NCBI GenBank assembly: GCA_900079685.1
Contig: LT599018.1
Span: forward strand, 303,012 to 367,011
Direction of reading: 5' to 3'
Origin: an uncultured delta proteobacterium
Lineage (GTDB): Bacteria > Desulfobacterota > Desulfovibrionia > Desulfovibrionales > Desulfovibrionaceae
Length of the DNA: 64,000 nucleotides
The translations under genes were made by a program, and so were the position numbers. Under the pieces are notes generated by a model that was given only the letters and a program-made list of their open reading frames with translations, was not told where the DNA came from and did not search any database. Of the stretch, positions 1 to 61,049 are shown piece by piece. Position 1 is the first letter of the stretch. Every line of letters begins with the position of its first letter.

Positions 1-11
1 AAGATAATCTT

Positions 12-1271
12 CAATGTTGTCCGGTTAAGCACCCATAGCTAACAGGCTATAACTATAGGTGTTTATAGTTTTTCGTCTTCGCGGATTCAGAAGTTCTTCC
101 AGAGAATCCTTGCCGAACAGATTCAAGCAAATGAGCTCGAAGAGTTGTTGCACCGACAGCCCAAGCTTGCTCAGGAATTTCTGATAGGCCAGGAGTAAAT
201 ACACGGTCAGGGCCGTATAAATCTGGATGTGCACCGCATTCTCCGAGCGCCCGACAAAGCTTTTAATATGCAGATTTTGTTTGACTTCGCGGAAGAATAT
301 TTCAATTTGCCAGCGTTCTTTATAGATATCAGCAATTGTCTTGGCGGACAGGCGGAAATGGTTGGTCAAAAATTCGTACCGTTTGCCGGTTTTCGCATCG
401 CGATAGCCGATTCTGCGTAGACGAGTGGTTTTTCCCCGGCTGCTCACGTCAATGATGTGATCGGACGTGACCCCGGTTTTCCGGTCTACGGCGCGGCGAT
501 CAACGAGCTTATAGGCAGCATTGCTCTTCAGTCGGGTTACGAAGAAAATGCCCTTCGCGGTCAACATGCGAAACCAGGAATAGCAGATATAGCCTTTATC
601 GAAGGTGACGATGGAACCCTTTGGCAATGAAAGACTTTTGGCCATGCGGCTTTCGTGGGTTTTGGCATTGTTGATATCGAGAAAAGCGGGAATGTAGCCA
701 TCGTGGTCAAGCACGGTATTTACTTTCACGCCAGCCTTGTTCCGCCGGAACGACGCCCAGGGAAAGATGGACAGGCATAGGCTGATGGTGGTGGCGTCCA
801 TGCTGTACAGCTTGCACTTGAAGCGGAATTTGTGACGAGGCGCACGAAGATGGCACAGGCCATACATTTCAGCGAACAGGTCTTTGAAAAATTCCACAGG
901 CCTTGAATTGTTGGCATCGGCAACCGTGGAACGCGCTACTGATTTCAAGCCGAGGTGATACAGCCGTCTCTTGGCCGCCTCCAAGGCGCGAAGCCCATCG
1001 CGTAAAGAGCGCCTTGCAGCGAGTTGGATAAAGGCCATGACGGTGAATTGCTCCTTGAATCCAAATTGGCGTGAAGAGCGGCCAGTTTTGTGCTTGCGTT
1101 CGAGTTTTTCAAAAACATGTCCCGGTATCAGGGATAGCAGTTGAGAGAAGAGTGTAGTATGATGGCTCAAGTCCAAAATCTCCTTGTGTGGCAAGTTGTT
1201 GTGGTAACTTCTTATACCACATACTGCTGAGATTTTGGACTTTTTTGTTACCCCTTAGCCGGACAGCAATG
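12..1271 (-). mobile_element. IS4-family insertion sequence, copy A (divergent type)
   Basis: This 1260-bp element has imperfect terminal inverted repeats: CAATGTTGTCCGGTTAAG at the left end and, on the opposite strand, CATTGCTGTCCGGCTAAG at the right end. It carries one transposase gene on the minus strand. It is related to but clearly different from the two 1263-bp copies at 37015 and 59778. The 9 bases on the left (3-11) do not match the 9 on the right (1272-1280), so there is no target duplication, unlike the other two copies. That suggests recombination or deletion at one side. The right end abuts a truncated mcrC. Confidence 0.85.
25..1170 (-). CDS. IS4-family DDE transposase
   Basis: This is the transposase of IS copy A, about 381 residues. 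It has the IS4-type C-terminal signature Y-x2-R-x3-E-x6-K (YKERWQIEIFFREVK), where the glutamate is the third catalytic acid. Upstream segments MDATTIS and FDKGY fit the two DDE aspartates. The chosen start is TTG at 1170, because it aligns with the ATG of the two other copies (LSHHTTLFSQ against MSHHNTLFSQ) and keeps the AAGGAG ribosome site at the same distance. Use of TTG could lower transposase output. The protein is close but not identical to the other copies. I see no frameshift, so it is probably intact. Confidence 0.85.
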   Translation of the reverse strand: MSHHTTLFSQLLSLIPGHVFEKLERKHKTGRSSRQFGFKEQFTVMAFIQLAARRSLRDGLRALEAAKRRLYHLGLKSVARSTVADANNSRPVEFFKDLFAEMYGLCHLRAPRHKFRFKCKLYSMDATTISLCLSIFPWASFRRNKAGVKVNTVLDHDGYIPAFLDINNAKTHESRMAKSLSLPKGSIVTFDKGYICYSWFRMLTAKGIFFVTRLKSNAAYKLVDRRAVDRKTGVTSDHIIDVSSRGKTTRLRRIGYRDAKTGKRYEFLTNHFRLSAKTIADIYKERWQIEIFFREVKQNLHIKSFVGRSENAVHIQIYTALTVYLLLAYQKFLSKLGLSVQQLFELICLNLFGKDSLEELLNPRRRKTINTYSYSLLAMGA

Positions 1272-1699
1272 AGAAGAGAAATATTCAGCAAAAATGGCTA
1301 GTGGATGGCTGGTCAAACGATACTGAGCACTATTTGCCCCATATGGCGCTGGATGTTGTGCTGACCAGCAAGGATCGGCAAGAAAAAATTGTGATTGATA
1401 CCAAGTTCACCAGCCTTCTCAAGCCGGGCTGGTATCGGGATAAATCTTTCTCCAGCGCCTATATCTACCAAATGTATGCCTATCTGCGCTCCCAAGAAGA
1501 GCGTGGAGAACCACACAGAACCGCAACTGGCGTTCTCCTGCACCCAGCAACCGATAAGTCTGAAAAATTTACTGTGTCCATACAGGGGCATACTTTCGTT
1601 TTTGCAACGGTGAACCTGAACGCTCCCGTTAAGGAAATTCGGAAAGAACTCCTCGACATCTTGGTCACTGAAGAAAATTCGGAACTCGTTGGAAGTTAG
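1272..1699 (+). pseudogene. mcrC: McrC-like restriction subunit, C-terminal fragment cut by the IS
   Basis: The frame stays open back to the IS edge at 1272 (EKRNIQQKWLVDGW...), so the GTG at 1301 is probably not a real start. The fragment carries the McrC/LlaJI-type nuclease core: LPHMALDVVL, then IVIDTKF, fitting the D...(D/E)xK pattern of the PD-(D/E)xK fold, and a following YQMYAYL helix. McrC partners the McrB GTPase in modification-dependent restriction. The N-terminal half and any mcrB are missing, so the system is presumably dead here. It reads toward the convergent HU gene, separated by a hairpin at 1750-1787. Confidence 0.7.
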
Positions 1700-1749
1700 G
1701 ATAGCTGTGACCAAAGGCGAACCTGTCAGCCACCTGTATCGGTTGGTGC

Positions 1750-1787
1750 CTTTCAAAGACAGCGCAAGGCCGTGCTGTCTTTGAAAG
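1750..1787. terminator. 14-bp perfect hairpin between mcrC fragment and HU gene
   Basis: The arms CTTTCAAAGACAGC (1750-1763) and GCTGTCTTTGAAAG (1774-1787) pair perfectly around a 10-base loop between two convergent genes. There is no long T-run on either side, so the terminator role is inferred from position. Confidence 0.5.
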
Positions 1788-1799
1788 ATGAGAAAAAAT

Positions 1800-2084
1800 T
1801 CACGAGAACAGCCACAGGCTCTCTTTCAAAGCCTTGCCCGGCGTAAACTTTACAGCGGTAGATTCGGGAATCTGAATTTCCGCGCCGGTACGGGGATTGC
1901 GACCTTTACGAGCGGCGCGTTTTACCGGTTTGAAGCTGCCGAAGCCGGAAATGGCAATGCTGTCGCCATTTTTCAAAGCATTGCCGAGCAGGGAAAACAT
2001 GGTGTTGTAGGCATTTTCGGCTTGAGCCAGCGAAGTAAGCCCGGCCTCTTCTTTCAGTCGTTTGACGATTTCGGCTTTTGTCAT
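1800..2084 (-). CDS. HU-family DNA-binding protein
   Basis: This is a 94-residue histone-like protein of normal HU length. It begins MTKAEIVKRL and contains the core ISGFGSFKPVKRAARKGRNP with the DNA-binding arm RNPRTGAEIQIPES and the typical ending AVKFTPGKALKE. It would bend and wrap DNA without strong sequence preference. Its ATG overlaps the stop of the upstream pRiA4b-like gene (ATGA), so the two are translationally coupled. Its position beside a pRiA4b-like gene and a plasmid-type helicase suggests a mobile-element HU rather than the main chromosomal copy. Confidence 0.92.
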   Translation of the reverse strand: MTKAEIVKRLKEEAGLTSLAQAENAYNTMFSLLGNALKNGDSIAISGFGSFKPVKRAARKGRNPRTGAEIQIPESTAVKFTPGKALKESLWLFS

Positions 2085-2863
2085 GACTTCCTCCTATTTT
2101 TTGTTTGTTGAGCATATTTTCGTTCGATCAGGGCTATCGAACGCTGCGTTGGTTCAAGCCTGTCTTCATAAATCTGCTTGTAGATGCGAGGCAATTTTTT
2201 CAGGCGAAAATTCATGTCATCAATGTCGAAAGCGGTGGTCATATCCAATTCATCCATGCCCAGCCAGTCTCGCAGGTTTTCATAGAGAGTACCTTTTTTC
2301 TTTGTGAACACTGCCGCCAGTTCCGCAAGACCGGGCGTTCCTCCGCAATCCTCAATAATACCAAACCCAGCCCCCTCCAATGCATGTGGCAGTTCACTAC
2401 CGGGCAAAGCCGCATTTTTGGTGACGGATTCAAGGGTGAGGGATACCCACCAGTCGTCGCCAAAGTCATAATTCAGGCTCAACTTGTCACCCGGATGTTG
2501 TATGGTCTTTGCAATGTTGCTTTTTGTAGCGTCGAAAACCCTGTTTTCCTTCGGGTCTCCAAAACTATCCGATTCAAAATCCAGCAATTCGTAACGCCAG
2601 ACGGAATGGACGCCCGCGAGCGCTTTTTCGGCGGCGGCAACATCGCTATCGTTGGGAGACTTCCTACGGATTTCCTCAAGAAAATTATCACTAAAGGGTA
2701 CTTCAACGGCAAACAGGTGGCTGGCCTTCATTTCAAACAAGGTCATCACAATGTAAGCCAGACGAGCTATTGTCACATTGCCAGGCACCTGAAACCGCCG
2801 CCATATTATAGGCTTATAATCGTCCAGTACTGCATAAAACTGATATATTGGCTGACTGGCCAT
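2081..2863 (-). CDS. Plasmid pRiA4b ORF-3-like protein
   Basis: This protein of about 260 residues begins MASQPIYQFYAVLDDYKPIIWRR. The stretch with the W-R-R motif, followed by LNYDFGDDWWVSLTLE and DCGGTPGLAEL, is the hallmark of the pRiA4b ORF-3-like family. Its molecular function is unknown; members are often carried by plasmids and integrative elements. The start at 2863 is supported by TTGGAGG eight bases upstream; a longer frame to 3001 lacks that support. The C-terminal tail is basic (RIYKQIYEDR...KNRRKS). It is coupled to the HU gene downstream, and a hairpin separates it from the helicase upstream. Confidence 0.82.
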   Translation of the reverse strand: MASQPIYQFYAVLDDYKPIIWRRFQVPGNVTIARLAYIVMTLFEMKASHLFAVEVPFSDNFLEEIRRKSPNDSDVAAAEKALAGVHSVWRYELLDFESDSFGDPKENRVFDATKSNIAKTIQHPGDKLSLNYDFGDDWWVSLTLESVTKNAALPGSELPHALEGAGFGIIEDCGGTPGLAELAAVFTKKKGTLYENLRDWLGMDELDMTTAFDIDDMNFRLKKLPRIYKQIYEDRLEPTQRSIALIERKYAQQTKNRRKS

Positions 2864-2986
2864 TTCGTGCGCCTCCAAGCGGTTTGCCATATGGAATTTC
2901 ATTACGGGAACCCTACGAGGGATATACTGTCCGTTTGATTTTTTCGGGTCAAGAAAATCCCGGCAGGGAACCAAACTCTCATTTTT

Positions 2987-3024
2987 CGCTTGTAACCCCA
3001 CCGAACTCGATGGGGTTACAAGCG
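2987..3024. repeat. 14-bp perfect inverted repeat between helicase and pRiA4b-like gene
   Basis: CGCTTGTAACCCCA (2987-3000) and its exact reverse complement (3011-3024) flank a 10-base loop, immediately after the helicase stop on the minus strand. There is no T-run on either side, so it could be an mRNA-end hairpin or an operator for the pRiA4b-like/HU operon. Confidence 0.55.
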
Positions 3025-3037
3025 GAGTTGCATAAAT

Positions 3038-6000
3038 TCACCCGCACCGCATTGTTAATTGCGGAGCTGGCGCGGGCATCGGCATGGGCGGCACTTCCAT
3101 GTCCAGGGATGTTTTCGGCTCCCAGGTGGAAACATACTTGGAATCGTCCTGCATACGTTGCAGCTCCCGAATAATCGCGCCGTGGTTTTCGCGCACCAGG
3201 GCCAGCTCGTCTTTTTGGGGAAACTCTTTTCCCAATGCCGCCTCAACAGTTGCCAGTTCTGCGGTTTCGCGCCGGGCATTCTCCCTGGAGGCATCTACTG
3301 TTTCATCCAGCCCCTTGGTCAAGAAGTTGTCCATACGTTGAAACAGGCCGGATAAGCTCAATTTTTCGTCAAAGCTGTATGTCAGGTTTTCCGGTTTGTA
3401 TTTTTGGTCGCCCGCGCCTTCAAAAACAAAGCGGAATCCATCGTTGCCCAACAAGCGCGTTACCCGTTCAATATACACATCAAAGCCGCGATACGAGCCG
3501 AAAAGCGGCCTTTTGGTAAAATTTCGGCTCACTTCTTCCGCCCCGGCCAACAACCTGTTTTTTATGCGCTCACTGTCCTTTTCCCCAAGGCTTTTTCCGT
3601 CAACCACAAGCGCAACTTGGATTTTCTCTTTGCCCTCTTTGTCTTTGACAGTGCGAGTGTTGGCATCCCTGCGCCGGATATTTTCGGAATAAACGGCTTC
3701 CGCTGCGGCCAGGCGCTTGTCGATGGTGCCAAGGGTTTTCAGGCGGTCCCGCAAGCGATGCTGACTGCGCTGATGTTGGGAATACAGGGCTTCCAGCTTC
3801 CGCAGATCGCTGGCCAGCTTCACTTGCATGAGTATCAGCGGGTTGCCTGATGCCGCCGCTTTCATTTCGGCGGCGTTAGCGGCCTCGCTTTGCACATCGT
3901 CAATGACGCGCTGTAACAAGTCGCCTTTGCGGAACTGTTCGATTGCCGCCGCCTTGTATTCTATGGTCTGCCACATACGGGCATCATAGGTCTGCTTGGT
4001 GGCGTAATTAAAAATGCCGACCGAAAAATTATCCGGATCGCGCTCATAAAGCATATTGCCCTGGCGGATAATACGCCCGTTTCGCTGTTCCAGATCGGAC
4101 GGTCGCCAGGGCGCATCAAGGTGGTGTGCGGCCACCAGACGCTTTTGCGCGTTCATGCCCGCGCCCATTTTGGCCGTGGAACCGAGAAGAACCCGGACGC
4201 GCCCGGCGTTCATATCGCCAAACAGCTTGGACTTGCGAATATCCGTGTTGGCATCGTGGATAAAAGCGATTTCGTCAGCGGGGATGCCCCGCGCAACAAG
4301 TTTTTGCCGCATATCGTCATAGACGGAAAATTTGGAAGAAGACAGCGCGATAACGGCGTCCATGTCAGCGGCCACGGAGGTATCTTCGCCGCTGTCATCG
4401 TCGCCAGCTTCCACCAGGTCGGAATCGGTCACATCTTCCGTTTCTCCCATCGCTTCATCTGGAACTGGCTCAAAACCTTCTACCGCAAAAACACCATCTT
4501 GCACGGCCTGCGGAGCCGGGACCGCCGAGCCTTTACCTTTCGGTGTGGACAAATCGCAGAACACAAGCTGAGTCCCACGGTCTTCCGCCGTGTCGCGCCA
4601 GATTTCATAGATGCGCTCGACCGCCGCATTGATTTTGGAGCCGGGGGCATCTTCCGCTTCCGGCGTAATCAAACGGAAATCCAGACCGGCTTTGCGGGCG
4701 TCATTGGTAATTTTGAGCGGATTGTCTTCGCGTGGGTCGGACGGCAAATGCTCCATGCGGTGAATGATGTCATCCATGTATACAGCCTGGTCATCGGACC
4801 GCTCGACAATATGGTTGAACGCTCTGCCGCCCGTAACCGGGGGCGTGAGAGGCCGCATACCGGCCTGTTTTGCCTGCTCGTCAAGGTCATTTTTCGTCAC
4901 CACGTCCGCGAAGGTCCGGTACATGGAAAGCAGTTCCGGTACGTTCTGGAAGCTGGCAAAACGGCTTTTGAGTTTGTAATTGACGCCTGTGGCGTCCAGC
5001 TCCCACCCGTTTGTAATCTGTCCGAAGGTGGAGGCCCAGGCGTCGAAATGCTCAATATCCTTGGCCTGCAATTCCTCATACTGCATGTATCGTTGCAGAG
5101 TGTATACCTCCGCGATGGTGTTGCTGATGGGAGTTCCGGTCATAAAATACACGCCCCGCCCGTCATTTTGACGCTGCAAGTAGCGGCATTTTATGAAGAG
5201 GTCCAAAGCCTTGGCGCTGCCGGTGATATTCCCCAGACCGGATACGTTCATGGTTGTCTGATAGGCCAGATTCTTGAACTCATGGCTTTCGTCAACAAAC
5301 AGGGCATCCACGCCCAAATCGGAAAAATCCACGGAACGGTCTTTGGCTCCCGTACCGGCCAGCAGCTTTTCATAGCGGGCCTGCATTTTCTCTTTTTGCT
5401 TTTCCAACTGTTTGACCGTGGCCCGTCCACCCTCATTTTCCTTGGCGGTCTGTATCGCTTCAACAACCGCATCGATCTGCTCCTGAAGAATTTCCTCCTG
5501 CACATCGCGGGGCATGTCGATTTTTTTGAAAGAACTGTGCGCGACAATAACGGCGTCCCATTCGCCGGTGGCAATCCGGCTGAACAGCCGTTCCCGGTTT
5601 TCTTTGGTAAAATCGGTCTTGTCGGCCACAAGAATATTTGCACCCGGGTAAAGCCGATAGAACTCATCCCGCCACTGGTGCAGCAGATGGTTCGGCACGA
5701 CAACCATAGGTTTTGAGACAAAGCCCATGCGCTTGCTCTCCATAATCGAGGCAACGCAGGCCATAGTCTTGCCCGCGCCCACAACATGGTCAAAAAGCGC
5801 CGTGCCTTCCTGAATGCTTCGCCAGACCACATCTTTTTGATGCGGCCTGAGAGTGACATCCGAGGAAGCCCCTACCAGTTCGATATGCGAACCGTCATAG
5901 GATGGAGGAACATGAGTGTTGAAACGCTCGTTATAGAGCCTGGTCAGCATGTCGCGCCGGTCGTCATCGGTCCAGACCCAATCAAGAAACGCCTGGCGGA

Positions 6001-6362
6001 TTTCGTCCGCCTTCTGCATGACGGCGGCAGTAAGCTCCTGATCCACTATCATGATCGGCTTACCGCTATCGTCGCTTTGGCCGCTTTCCTTTTCCACCTT
6101 GATCGGTCTGTTCATCAGCAAGGACTCGATAATCTTGCCAGCCGGATATTCGGGAATGCCCCAAACAGCCGTATTCAGGGCCGTGTCCCATATATTGACC
6201 TTGGCCTCCCACCGGCCCAAAGTCGGAAAATAGTTGACGCTCTGCCTTCCCTTGCCGGAATGAAGCTGTTCAATAAAATCCGAAACTACCAGGCCCGGCA
6301 CCCAGGTGGAGCCGAACTTGATGCCGATGTCCACTGCCTCAATGTCCGGAGGCATGGCGGCG
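3038..6362 (-). pseudogene. Giant SNF2/DEAD-like helicase of plasmids and ICEs, N-terminus missing
   Basis: About 1100 residues are left. Walker A is VVGAGKT, motif II is VDESHEF, motif III is MTGTPISNT, and motif VI is QRNGRIIRQGN. A coiled-coil C-terminal region follows (KQLEKQKEKMQ, LRKLEALYSQHQRSQHRL). This arrangement matches the very large helicases of conjugative elements, which often carry an N-terminal methyltransferase-like domain (DarB-like anti-restriction proteins). Similarity starts near MPPDIEAVDIGIKFGSTWVP and stops dead at about 6362. Beyond that point the same open frame runs as meaningless antisense of fliF as far as 7666. The true N-terminal half is therefore absent. A linker rich in D, E and S (near 4400) lies between the two helicase lobes. 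Confidence 0.8.
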
Positions 6363-6370
6363 GTCAAGCG
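6350..6370. other. Breakpoint joining truncated helicase to truncated fliF, head to head
   Basis: To the left, minus-strand codons read as helicase up to AMPPDIEAVD. To the right, plus-strand codons read as FliF from QALQGELARTL. Both genes lose their N-terminal parts at the same point. No IS end, tRNA or obvious repeat is visible, so the exact base cannot be fixed. Confidence 0.75.
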
Positions 6371-7576
6371 TTGCAGGGCGAACTCGCCCGCACGCTGACC
6401 GCGTTCCCCGCTGTTGAGAACGCCCGCGTGCACCTGGTTCTTCCCGCCCGCACCCTGTTCATCGAAGAGCAGCAGAAGCCTTCGGCCTCGGTCGTGCTGA
6501 AGCTCTCCGGCGCAGCCAAGATGGACCAGCGCGACGTCATGTCGATCGTCAATCTTCTGACGATGTCCGTCGAAGGGTTGGACAAGAGCAGGATCTCCAT
6601 CGCCGACACCTCCGGCAAGGTGCTTTTCCAGCCTAACGAAGAAGGCGCGCTCCAGCTTTCCGGCACCCAGGTCGAGATGACCAACGCGGCCCAGGCCCGT
6701 TTTGAACGCCGCATTGAAGAGCTGCTCACCCCCATGGTCGGCGCGGGCAAGGTCAAGGCCACGGTTAACGCGGAACTCGATTTTTCCCAGCGCACCATCC
6801 GCAAAGAAGTGTTCGACCCGGAATCCGCCGTGCTCCGTTCCGAGGAAAGAAGCGAAGAATCCCGCCAGGGCAGCGCCAACCTGGATTCCGGCGTGCCGGA
6901 AACCAACTTCCGCGGCGACGGCATGGGCGGCACCCAGTCCACGTCCCAGAGCACCCGTGAGACCCGTAAGAGCAACTTTGAGATCAACAAGGAAGAGCAT
7001 AATATCGTCGCCCAGCTGGGCGGTGTCCATCGCCTCAGCGTGGCCGTGATTGTTGACGGCGCGTATGAAAAGGACCAGAATGGTAATACGGTTTACGTGC
7101 CGCGCACCGATGAAGACCTGAAGCGGATCCGCCAGCTGGTTGCGGGCGCCGTGGGCTTTGATTCCGCGCGCGGAGATGTTATTGAAGTTTCCAGTGTGCA
7201 GTTCAGCGCCATGGATCAGGAAATCCCGGCCAACATCGCCGACGTCATCACGGATTACACCCTGCGTCTCGGCAAGCCTTTCCTGAACGCGCTGCTCATC
7301 TTCCTCTTCCTCATGATGGTCGTGCGGCCCGTGGTGATGGCGCTCATCCGGCCCAAAGTGGAAGGGGAAATGGTTGAAGGGTTTGAAGGCATTCCCCTGC
7401 CGCCGTCCGACGAGCGCCTGGCCCTTATCGACGGCAGCGACGAAGCGGTGGAAGCGCTCGCCATGCTGGAAAAGATCGAAGATATCAAGGCCCATGCCAT
7501 CCAGCTCTCCGAGCAGAACATGGAGCAGGCCGTGGGTATTATCAGAAGCTGGCTCAAGACGGCGGAACCGGCCTGA
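6363..7576 (+). pseudogene. fliF: Flagellar MS-ring protein FliF, N-terminal region missing
   Basis: About 404 residues of a protein normally about 540 long remain. They start inside the first ring-building region (QALQGELARTL...VENARVHLVLP) and run through the collar region, the C-terminal membrane segment (PFLNALLIFLFLMMVV) and the FliG-binding tail (MEQAVGIIRSWL). The N-terminal membrane helix and roughly 120-130 residues are lost at the 6362 breakpoint, along with any promoter, RBS and the flgB-flgC-fliE genes that usually precede. As written, no MS ring could form. The downstream fliGHI genes are intact, which makes an assembly join or a very recent rearrangement more likely than old decay. 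Confidence 0.85.
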
Positions 7577-7728: not shown

Positions 7729-8745
7729 GTGTCCCAAATCAGCGACGCAAAAAACCTGACGGGTCCCCAAAAGACGGCGGTTCTCCTGCTCAGCTTGGGC
7801 GACTCGTTCGCGGCGGAAGTTTTCAAACGCATGGAGCGGCAGGAAATCGCCCAGGTTTCCAAAGCTATCATGGAAATGGAAACGATCGACAAGGAAGTCG
7901 TTGAGGACGTCTTGCGCGAATACCACCATGCCCTGGTCACCGGGCAGGAAATGGTGCGCGGCGGCTCGGACACGCTCCGCAGGCTCCTGTCCAACAACCT
8001 GGACAGCGAAACGACCAAATACGTCAGCGACCTGCTGAGCCTGGATACCGGCCCCACCCCGTTCCGCGAGCTGGACAACGTCAGCCCGCGCGTGCTTGCC
8101 CAGATTCTGCGCAACGAACACCCGCAAACGCTGGCCCTTATCGTCGGGCACATGCGCTCGGATCAGGGCGCTTCGCTCCTGCAGGCGCTGCCGGCGGGGG
8201 TCCGTTGCGAGGTGCTCATGCGCCTCGCCAAGCTTGAAGCCGTTCCCGAGGAGATGCTCATGGCGGTGGACAAGGTTTTGCAAAGCCAGCTTATCGCCAT
8301 GGGCGGCAAGGAAGGCAAAAAAGTCGGCGGCGTTCAGTCCGTGGCGGAAATCCTCAACTCCGTGGACCGCGCGACGGAAGAGGAAGTGCTTTCGGAAATC
8401 GAGGAACAGTCCGCGCAGATGGCGGAAGAAATCCGCAACCTCATGTTCGTGTTCGAGGACGTTGCCGGCCTCGACGACCGCGCCATCCGAGAATCCCTCA
8501 AGGAAATTTCCAACGAGGATCTTACCATGGCGTTACGCGGCGCCAAGGAAGACATGCGCGACGTCTTCTTCCGCAACATGTCCGAACGCGCCGCCACCAT
8601 GATCCGGGAAGACCTGGAAATTATGGGACCCACGAAACTTTCCGACGTGGAAGCGGCGCAGCAGAATATCGTCAAGATTATCCGCCGCCTGGAGGCGGAA
8701 GGCCGCATCATGATAGCCAGGGGTTCCAGCGATGTCTTTGTCTGA
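7729..8745 (+). CDS. fliG: Flagellar motor switch protein FliG
   Basis: This 338-residue protein of the cytoplasmic C-ring binds the FliF tail and couples stator torque to rotation. The N-terminal domain reads LTGPQKTAVLLLSLGDSFAAEVFKRM. The middle domain has the EHPQTLALIVGHM motif (EHPQ is the family signature). The C-terminal torque domain includes FEDVAGLDDRAIRESLKEI and the charged helix ALRGAKEDMRDVFFRNMSERAA. The start is GTG at 7729, chosen for GGGAGG eight bases upstream and because the product then has family length; the in-frame ATG at 7672 would add a low-complexity tail encoded by the 13-bp repeat. It overlaps fliH by 14 bp. Confidence 0.95.
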   Translation: MSQISDAKNLTGPQKTAVLLLSLGDSFAAEVFKRMERQEIAQVSKAIMEMETIDKEVVEDVLREYHHALVTGQEMVRGGSDTLRRLLSNNLDSETTKYVSDLLSLDTGPTPFRELDNVSPRVLAQILRNEHPQTLALIVGHMRSDQGASLLQALPAGVRCEVLMRLAKLEAVPEEMLMAVDKVLQSQLIAMGGKEGKKVGGVQSVAEILNSVDRATEEEVLSEIEEQSAQMAEEIRNLMFVFEDVAGLDDRAIRESLKEISNEDLTMALRGAKEDMRDVFFRNMSERAATMIREDLEIMGPTKLSDVEAAQQNIVKIIRRLEAEGRIMIARGSSDVFV

Positions 8746-36992: not shown

Positions 36993-37014
36993 GCACGAAT
37001 AATACCGTCCGCTT

Positions 37015-38277
37015 CAATGCTGTCCGGTTAAGCTGCCAAGGATAACAGACTGAGGTTATAGAGGTTTTCATTTTTTCGTCGTCGGGGCTTCAGGAGTTCT
37101 TCCAGCGAGTCTGTTCCGAGGATGTTCAGTGAGGCGATTTGGAAAAGTTGCTGCACGGACAGCCCTGTTTTACTCAGGAATTTCTGGTAGGCCAGGAGCA
37201 GGTAGACGGTCAGCGCGGTATAAATCTGAATCAATACAGCATTTTCCGTGTTCCCGACAAAGCTTTTGATGCGTAGATTCTGTTTGATTTCGCGAAAAAA
37301 GAGTTCGATTTTCCAGCGTTCTTTGTAAATATCGGCGATGGTGCGGGCGGACAGGCGAAAGTGATTTGTCAGAAATTCGTAACGCTTGCCTGTTTCGGCG
37401 TCCCGGTAGCCGATGCGACGCAGGCGCAAGACTTTTCCCCGGCTGTGCTTCACTTCGATAATGTGGTCGGAAGTAACCCCGCTTGTGCGGTTCACCGGGC
37501 GGCGCTCCAGCAGTTTGTAAACAGCGTTGTCCTTCAGGCGGGTGACGAAAAAGATGCCATTTTCGAGCAGGGTCTGAAACCAGGGGTAACTGACATAGCC
37601 TTTGTCGAAGGTCACGATGGAGCCTTTGGGCAGAGAAAGACTTTTCGCCATACGGCTTTCGTGCGTTTTGGCCACATCAACGGTGACAAATGCCGGGATA
37701 TGACCATCGTGGTCAAGCACTGTGTTCATTTTGACGCCGCCCTTGTTTTGGCGGAACGTGGCCCAGGGAAACAGCGACAAACACAGGCTGATGGTGGTGG
37801 CGTCCATGCTGTAAAGTTTGCATTTGAAATGAAATTTGTGTTTGGAGGCCTTGGGAACACACAGGCTGTACATGTCGGCAAATAGATCTTTGAAAAAGCC
37901 CACAGGCCGGGAGTTGTTGGCATCGGAGAAAGTGGAACGTGCAACGGGAAAAAGGCCAAAATGATACAGCCTCTTGCCGCAGGCGGCCAAACAGCGCAAT
38001 CCGTCACGCATGGAGCGCCTTGCTGCAAGCTGGATAAAAGCCATGACCGTAAACTGTTCCTTAAAGCCGAATTGTCGAGAAGAACGACCTGTTTTATGCC
38101 GGGCTTCCAGTTTCTGAAAAACATGTCTGGGAATCAATGATAGCATTTGAGAAAAGAGTGTATTATGATGGCTCATGTTCAAAATCTCCTTGGGCTGCAA
38201 TGGGTTATGCAACTGTTTTGTAGCATAAACCTCGGAGATTTTGAACATATTTAACGCACCTTAGCCGGACAGCATTG
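37015..38277 (-). mobile_element. IS4-family insertion sequence, copy B1, with 9-bp target duplication
   Basis: The element is 1263 bp with ends CAATGCTGTCCGGTTAAG and, inverted, CAATGCTGTCCGGCTAAG. It is flanked by the direct repeat CGTCCGCTT (37006-37014 and 38278-38286). It appears base-identical to the copy at 59778-61040. The intact 9-bp duplication and identity mean recent transposition. Confidence 0.95.
37028..38176 (-). CDS. IS4-family DDE transposase
   Basis: This 382-residue transposase begins MSHHNTLFSQMLSLIPRHVFQ. AAGGAG stands nine bases before the ATG at 38176; the longer frame to 38248 runs through the leader and is not needed. The C-terminal signature is YKERWKIELFFREIK (Y-x2-R-x3-E-x6-K). 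Acidic catalytic candidates sit in MDATTIS and FDKGYVSY. It is identical to the copy at 59791 and related to the one at 25. Intact, so the element is probably active. Confidence 0.92.
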   Translation of the reverse strand: MSHHNTLFSQMLSLIPRHVFQKLEARHKTGRSSRQFGFKEQFTVMAFIQLAARRSMRDGLRCLAACGKRLYHFGLFPVARSTFSDANNSRPVGFFKDLFADMYSLCVPKASKHKFHFKCKLYSMDATTISLCLSLFPWATFRQNKGGVKMNTVLDHDGHIPAFVTVDVAKTHESRMAKSLSLPKGSIVTFDKGYVSYPWFQTLLENGIFFVTRLKDNAVYKLLERRPVNRTSGVTSDHIIEVKHSRGKVLRLRRIGYRDAETGKRYEFLTNHFRLSARTIADIYKERWKIELFFREIKQNLRIKSFVGNTENAVLIQIYTALTVYLLLAYQKFLSKTGLSVQQLFQIASLNILGTDSLEELLKPRRRKNENLYNLSLLSLAA

Positions 38278-59730: not shown

Positions 59731-59777
59731 GAGGTCCGGCGCCCACGACCGGCATTCAAAGACAATATACCCGGCGT

Positions 59778-61040
59778 CAATGCTGTCCGGTTAAGCTGCC
59801 AAGGATAACAGACTGAGGTTATAGAGGTTTTCATTTTTTCGTCGTCGGGGCTTCAGGAGTTCTTCCAGCGAGTCTGTTCCGAGGATGTTCAGTGAGGCGA
59901 TTTGGAAAAGTTGCTGCACGGACAGCCCTGTTTTACTCAGGAATTTCTGGTAGGCCAGGAGCAGGTAGACGGTCAGCGCGGTATAAATCTGAATCAATAC
60001 AGCATTTTCCGTGTTCCCGACAAAGCTTTTGATGCGTAGATTCTGTTTGATTTCGCGAAAAAAGAGTTCGATTTTCCAGCGTTCTTTGTAAATATCGGCG
60101 ATGGTGCGGGCGGACAGGCGAAAGTGATTTGTCAGAAATTCGTAACGCTTGCCTGTTTCGGCGTCCCGGTAGCCGATGCGACGCAGGCGCAAGACTTTTC
60201 CCCGGCTGTGCTTCACTTCGATAATGTGGTCGGAAGTAACCCCGCTTGTGCGGTTCACCGGGCGGCGCTCCAGCAGTTTGTAAACAGCGTTGTCCTTCAG
60301 GCGGGTGACGAAAAAGATGCCATTTTCGAGCAGGGTCTGAAACCAGGGGTAACTGACATAGCCTTTGTCGAAGGTCACGATGGAGCCTTTGGGCAGAGAA
60401 AGACTTTTCGCCATACGGCTTTCGTGCGTTTTGGCCACATCAACGGTGACAAATGCCGGGATATGACCATCGTGGTCAAGCACTGTGTTCATTTTGACGC
60501 CGCCCTTGTTTTGGCGGAACGTGGCCCAGGGAAACAGCGACAAACACAGGCTGATGGTGGTGGCGTCCATGCTGTAAAGTTTGCATTTGAAATGAAATTT
60601 GTGTTTGGAGGCCTTGGGAACACACAGGCTGTACATGTCGGCAAATAGATCTTTGAAAAAGCCCACAGGCCGGGAGTTGTTGGCATCGGAGAAAGTGGAA
60701 CGTGCAACGGGAAAAAGGCCAAAATGATACAGCCTCTTGCCGCAGGCGGCCAAACAGCGCAATCCGTCACGCATGGAGCGCCTTGCTGCAAGCTGGATAA
60801 AAGCCATGACCGTAAACTGTTCCTTAAAGCCGAATTGTCGAGAAGAACGACCTGTTTTATGCCGGGCTTCCAGTTTCTGAAAAACATGTCTGGGAATCAA
60901 TGATAGCATTTGAGAAAAGAGTGTATTATGATGGCTCATGTTCAAAATCTCCTTGGGCTGCAATGGGTTATGCAACTGTTTTGTAGCATAAACCTCGGAG
61001 ATTTTGAACATATTTAACGCACCTTAGCCGGACAGCATTG
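59778..61040 (-). mobile_element. IS4-family insertion sequence, copy B2, upstream of nrfH
   Basis: This 1263-bp copy appears identical to copy B1 at 37015. It is flanked by the 9-bp duplication ACCCGGCGT (59769-59777 and 61041-61049). It is inserted 48 bp before the nrfH ATG with its transposase on the same strand as nrfHA, so it separates nrfHA from the original promoter, unless IS-borne transcription substitutes. Confidence 0.95.
59791..60939 (-). CDS. IS4-family DDE transposase
   Basis: This is the same 382-residue protein as at 37028, including the AAGGAG site and ATG (MSHHNTLFSQ), the YKERWKIELFFREIK signature and the presumed catalytic aspartates. Read-through from it would run into nrfHA. 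Confidence 0.92.
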   Translation of the reverse strand: MSHHNTLFSQMLSLIPRHVFQKLEARHKTGRSSRQFGFKEQFTVMAFIQLAARRSMRDGLRCLAACGKRLYHFGLFPVARSTFSDANNSRPVGFFKDLFADMYSLCVPKASKHKFHFKCKLYSMDATTISLCLSLFPWATFRQNKGGVKMNTVLDHDGHIPAFVTVDVAKTHESRMAKSLSLPKGSIVTFDKGYVSYPWFQTLLENGIFFVTRLKDNAVYKLLERRPVNRTSGVTSDHIIEVKHSRGKVLRLRRIGYRDAETGKRYEFLTNHFRLSARTIADIYKERWKIELFFREIKQNLRIKSFVGNTENAVLIQIYTALTVYLLLAYQKFLSKTGLSVQQLFQIASLNILGTDSLEELLKPRRRKNENLYNLSLLSLAA

Positions 61041-61049
61041 ACCCGGCGT

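Follow-up and report, generated by a model that had tools for sequence, protein, structure and literature searches.

We strongly infer that the break in the MS-ring gene fliF at window position 6367/6368 is a contig misjoin made by the assembler, a reading to which we give a probability of about 94% and for which the sequence evidence argues strongly rather than amounting to proof. The window (the whole stretch of DNA analysed, 64,000 nucleotides) is C1:303012-367011 of a 4,009,354-base assembly in three contigs; coordinates with the prefix C1 or C2 refer to those contigs and all others to the window. At 6367/6368, half of a minus-strand gene for an SNF2-type helicase meets part of the plus-strand fliF head to head, and both are without their 5' parts. 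The helicase reading frame (3041-6361, minus strand) matches Pfam PF00176, PF04851 and PF00271, and the FliF frame (6371-7573, plus strand) matches PF01514 from profile position 93 as well as PF08345. Alignment of the helicase with an intact relative begins at 6366, and a duplicated stretch of fliF at 6368. A lone N lies at C1:303011, one base to the left of the window, and no further N occurs within the window or in C1:285001-303010. The features around the join are as follows.

1-10, no strand: ten bases between the lone N at C1:303011 and the insertion sequence (IS); left edge of the misplaced piece
11-1272, minus strand: IS4-family insertion sequence, transposase at 25-1194 (profile NF033592)
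1301-1699, plus strand: C-terminal remnant of a McrC-type protein, adjoining the IS on its 5' side (PF10117 positions 260-310 of 318)
1800-2084, minus strand: HU-type DNA-binding protein (PF00216)
2081-3001, minus strand: pRiA4b ORF-3-like protein (PF07929)
3038-6366, minus strand: C-terminal (helicase) half of a DarB-like methylase-helicase, the N-terminal half of which is at C2:1-3460 (minus strand)
6367-6368, no strand: the join, with mobile-element DNA to the left and chromosomal fliF to the right, and no N at this point
6368-6964, plus strand: 597-bp stretch of fliF, repeated at 100% identity in C1:302414-303010, immediately ahead of the lone N
6965-7576, plus strand: remainder of fliF (3' end)

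A DNA search of the organism's own genome with window 5800-7000 as query recovered, besides the query itself, C1:302414-303010, which is identical to window 6368-6964 at 597 of 597 positions (across the own-genome DNA searches for the fliF region and the IS copies, 40 of 55 candidate places were scored). The direct copy ends exactly at the N, and the next base is base 1 of the window. The first-pass annotation had placed the loss of both 5' parts at one point with no visible repeat; the shared truncation point is borne out, at 6367/6368, and the absence of a repeat is contradicted by this exact copy. The same annotation took the 5' half of fliF to be lost. It had also called for a genome search for both missing 5' ends, and that search found both: the helicase end lies at C2:1-3460, and fliF starts at C1:302018, so that its 5' end occupies C1:302018-303010, outside the window. 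Loss of the fliF 5' end is thereby ruled out.

When the two pieces are overlapped at the 597 bp, they form a single open frame encoding a FliF of 534 amino acids. The YscJ/FliF and FliF C-terminal domains are found across both pieces, and the protein is full length in one frame only after overlapping. A search with the 5' part of fliF gave matches in 25 of 29 genomes including its own, that is, in 24 of 28 relatives. The overlapped FliF aligned as one segment at all 24 of these loci, with residues 15-528 of 534 or more covered at 22; the other alignments, to the distant relatives L091 and L092, span 8-458 and 45-411. Identity to a congener is 90.5%. The four relatives among the 28 that gave no match to the 5' part seem to indicate either that fliF loss does occur in the wider group or that those genomes are incomplete. 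The genes to the right of the join read as fliG, fliH and fliI, both by eye and in the first-pass annotation, and the gene order is thus an ordinary one if the insert is disregarded. The cell therefore probably has an ordinary, intact fliF.

The other side of the join leads to a second contig. The 5' half of the helicase gene is found in the organism's own genome only at C2:1-3460 (minus strand), in three fragments (6 of 6 candidates scored), and a search for the 3' half, with 5 of 5 candidates scored, found it nowhere but in the window piece. Loss of the 5' half of this gene is likewise ruled out. The N-terminal part is recognised by N6-methylase models, the window half by helicase models. 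At the intact locus of a relative (L025), methylase and helicase share a single reading frame of 2,063 amino acids, an arrangement replaced here by a split between C1 and C2 and an IS5-family insertion. Base 1 of C2 corresponds to position 7976 of that locus and window 6366 to position 7996, which leaves 19 nt unassembled.

We fetched 32 homologous helicase loci from relatives, the closest being Desulfovibrio and Mailhella records. Both halves were matched at 25 of the 32 and the window half alone at 7. At 23 of the 25 loci, 24 nt lie between the final codon used from C2 and the first used from the window, a spacing obtained by arithmetic with unaligned end residues counted; 13 of these 23 have no unaligned end residues, and the exceptions to the spacing are L029 (27 nt) and L055 (9 nt). 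The C2 side matches the family profile PHROG 10089, annotated 'DarB-like antirestriction', as far as position 2184, and the window side takes up the match at position 2195, with E-values of 0 for the window half and 2.2e-59 and 1.8e-114 for C2 fragments. Taken together, these comparisons argue strongly that a single DarB-like gene runs from the start of C2 on into window 6366, across a gap of about 19 nt; the two parts do not overlap, and their continuity is read from the homologues.

An IS5-family element with its transposase in two frames, at approximately C2:631-1471, interrupts the N-terminal half. The DarB-like gene is thus probably broken in the cell by this element even without the misjoin. 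A search of a plasmid collection with the helicase half returned 149 records, whose best place had 60-80% identity in 140 and 80-90% in 9; none of the 149 covered 80% of the query, and the 20 matches listed had 68.0-69.7% identity. The search provides family context only. A scan of viral contigs for the expected continuous helicase sequence gave no matches. In PADLOC the two DarB halves gave no more than partial cross-matches (helicase and methylase), and the McrC remnant gave no match.

Window 1-6367 very probably continues the conjugative-type element with which C2 begins, and was attached to chromosomal fliF in error. Near the DarB-like gene, C2:3500-8879 contains a relative of coupling proteins, with TrbC and TraD models matched below their cut-offs, a TrbN-like protein that also falls below the model cut-off, and a PIN-family putative toxin. 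These below-cut-off matches suggest that the start of C2 may be part of an integrative conjugative element or plasmid. G+C content is 0.524 for 1273-6367, 0.551 for the start of C2 and 0.609 for the fliF part. The McrC remnant at 1301-1699 is the only PF10117 match in the genome, and a PF10117 search found no match there for the N-terminal half of McrC. The true neighbour of the element piece on the IS side (the left) was not found.

The IS at 11-1272 has imperfect terminal inverted repeats of 19 bp (11-29 and 1254-1272) and is without a matching 9-bp target duplication. The genome has 25 further related copies, approximately 73-75% identical to it; no copy closer than 75% appeared among the places scored. 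We examined 19 of the 25. Both ends were present in 16, and 15 of these 16 are flanked by an exact 9-bp target duplication, the sole exception (L022) lying at a duplicated stretch of C2. Since the window IS lacks the duplication that 15 of 16 others have, the ten bases to its left probably did not flank it originally. The IS4-family element that is common in the genome occurs twice elsewhere in the window, at 37012-38277 and 59777-61041, in copies about 74% identical to 11-1272.

Other places in the assembly show related defects. Four N sites, all of a single N, were found in 246,338 distinct bases (C1:303011, C1:826477, C1:2349624 and C2:789171), a number that is not a whole-genome estimate as the bases examined come mainly from the surroundings of IS copies, contig ends and the window. 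The lone Ns at C1:826477 (L095) and C1:2349624 (L096) lie within IS copies that are missing something like 100 bp, so one N in this assembly appears to represent a gap of undetermined length. At these two sites no duplicated ends were present in the approximately 9-10 kb compared on each side. At a third place (L097), a direct repeat of 5,230 bp with 99.98% identity occupies C2:774017-779246 and 783941-789170. Both copies start at an IS4-family element, that of the second copy being without a target duplication, and the second copy abuts the lone N at C2:789171, the same signature as at fliF. This repeat is probably a second duplicated contig end.

We propose the following course of events. 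In the organism, fliF would be one uninterrupted chromosomal gene. One assembly contig would have ended inside it, at C1:303010, and the following contig would be a chimera, its first 6,367 bases being mobile element that continues from the start of C2, and its sequence from base 6368 being chromosome that begins inside the same fliF and overlaps the previous contig by 597 bases. The fusion point would also have split the DarB-like gene, whose other half stayed behind at the end of C2. With the overlap buried behind 6.4 kb of foreign sequence, the contigs would have been scaffolded with one N instead of being merged, and fliF would consequently appear interrupted and partly duplicated. The assembler rather than the cell would then have made the join, and the single N would mark a contig join. 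Three marks of an assembly misjoin are present here: an N at the boundary, a duplicated contig end and a continuation of the foreign part at another contig end. By simple arithmetic for 4.0 Mb and six contig ends, the odds that one of them lies by chance no more than 20 bp from the break are about 6 in 100,000. A misjoin accounts jointly for the N, the exact repeat, the head-to-head truncation and the end of C2, and fits the missing target duplication, which makes it the simplest account. The first-pass annotation had offered two contigs joined in assembly as one of its two options, and the N, the 597-bp duplicated end, the open overlapped FliF and the helicase half at a contig end strongly favour it. 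Its other option, a rearrangement that destroyed the MS-ring gene, finds no support.

Taken as it stands, the assembled sequence would describe such a rearrangement: a 6.4-kb element fragment placed into fliF between long exact direct repeats, with 597 bp duplicated, the DarB-like gene split, the MS-ring gene broken and the piece bordered on the left by an IS. We consider this very unlikely. The IS family makes 9-bp duplications in this genome, against 597 bp here, the right edge of the piece (6367) lies inside the helicase gene and not at an IS end, the break in the donor falls on base 1 of contig C2, and at its other end the piece runs up to the lone N. A real insertion would therefore have had to duplicate 597 bp, to end within a gene and to coincide by chance with the end of a contig. 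To our knowledge, a target duplication of 597 bp fits no known transposition. An IS-mediated insertion into fliF was rejected: no IS end lies at the right edge, the IS lacks a 9-bp duplication, and the repeat is 597 bp long. It is highly improbable that the window records a real, recent insertion of 6.4 kb of conjugative element with a 597-bp direct duplication and a flagellum switched off by this long-duplication route.

A mixed culture, in which the insertion is present in some cells, fliF is intact in the others and both versions entered the assembly, would permit the open overlap and the contig end within the helicase gene to occur together. It would still require a real chimeric molecule of an improbable kind, and a similar combination of N and duplication occurs at an unrelated place on C2; we hold this explanation to be exceedingly improbable. 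Nor do we give more than a minute chance to contamination, by which the element piece, with or without C2, would come from another organism and have been joined to this genome. The lower G+C content of the piece relative to the fliF part and the distance of its IS from the genome's 25 other copies would agree with such an origin. Against it, the start of C2 continues the same gene at a similar composition, which indicates that the piece and C2 belong together, and the IS common on C1 occurs several times on C2 as well.

With the misjoin as the preferred reading, the genome should not be recorded as fliF-defective on present evidence, and no conclusion on motility follows from the window. Any reading of the element piece at 1-6367 should take in the start of contig C2. 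Use of the assembly at face value would count a broken fliF and a misplaced mobile element, a caution beside which we cite one published study (PMC12108083). The genome also encodes two PFL-like enzymes, one of which was compared with solved structures and scored higher against glycerol dehydratase (663 bits) than against isethionate sulfite-lyase (468 bits), a result that lends no support to an assignment to Bilophila wadsworthia.

DarB is a protein of phage P1. The gene described here resembles DarB-like antirestriction methylase-helicases in that its fragments match PHROG 10089 at successive profile positions, and differs in being cut in two by the assembly and interrupted in its N-terminal half by an IS5-family element; its antirestriction role is a predicted one. 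FliF, the MS-ring protein, is recognisable from PF01514 and PF08345 and from a colinear gene in 24 of the 28 relatives searched, and departs from these in being present as two overlapping pieces in this assembly. For a chimeric contig or scaffold misjoin, nothing seen in the sequence sets the present case apart, and the likeness extends to the lone N, the exact duplicated end, the gene restored on overlap and the foreign half at another contig end.
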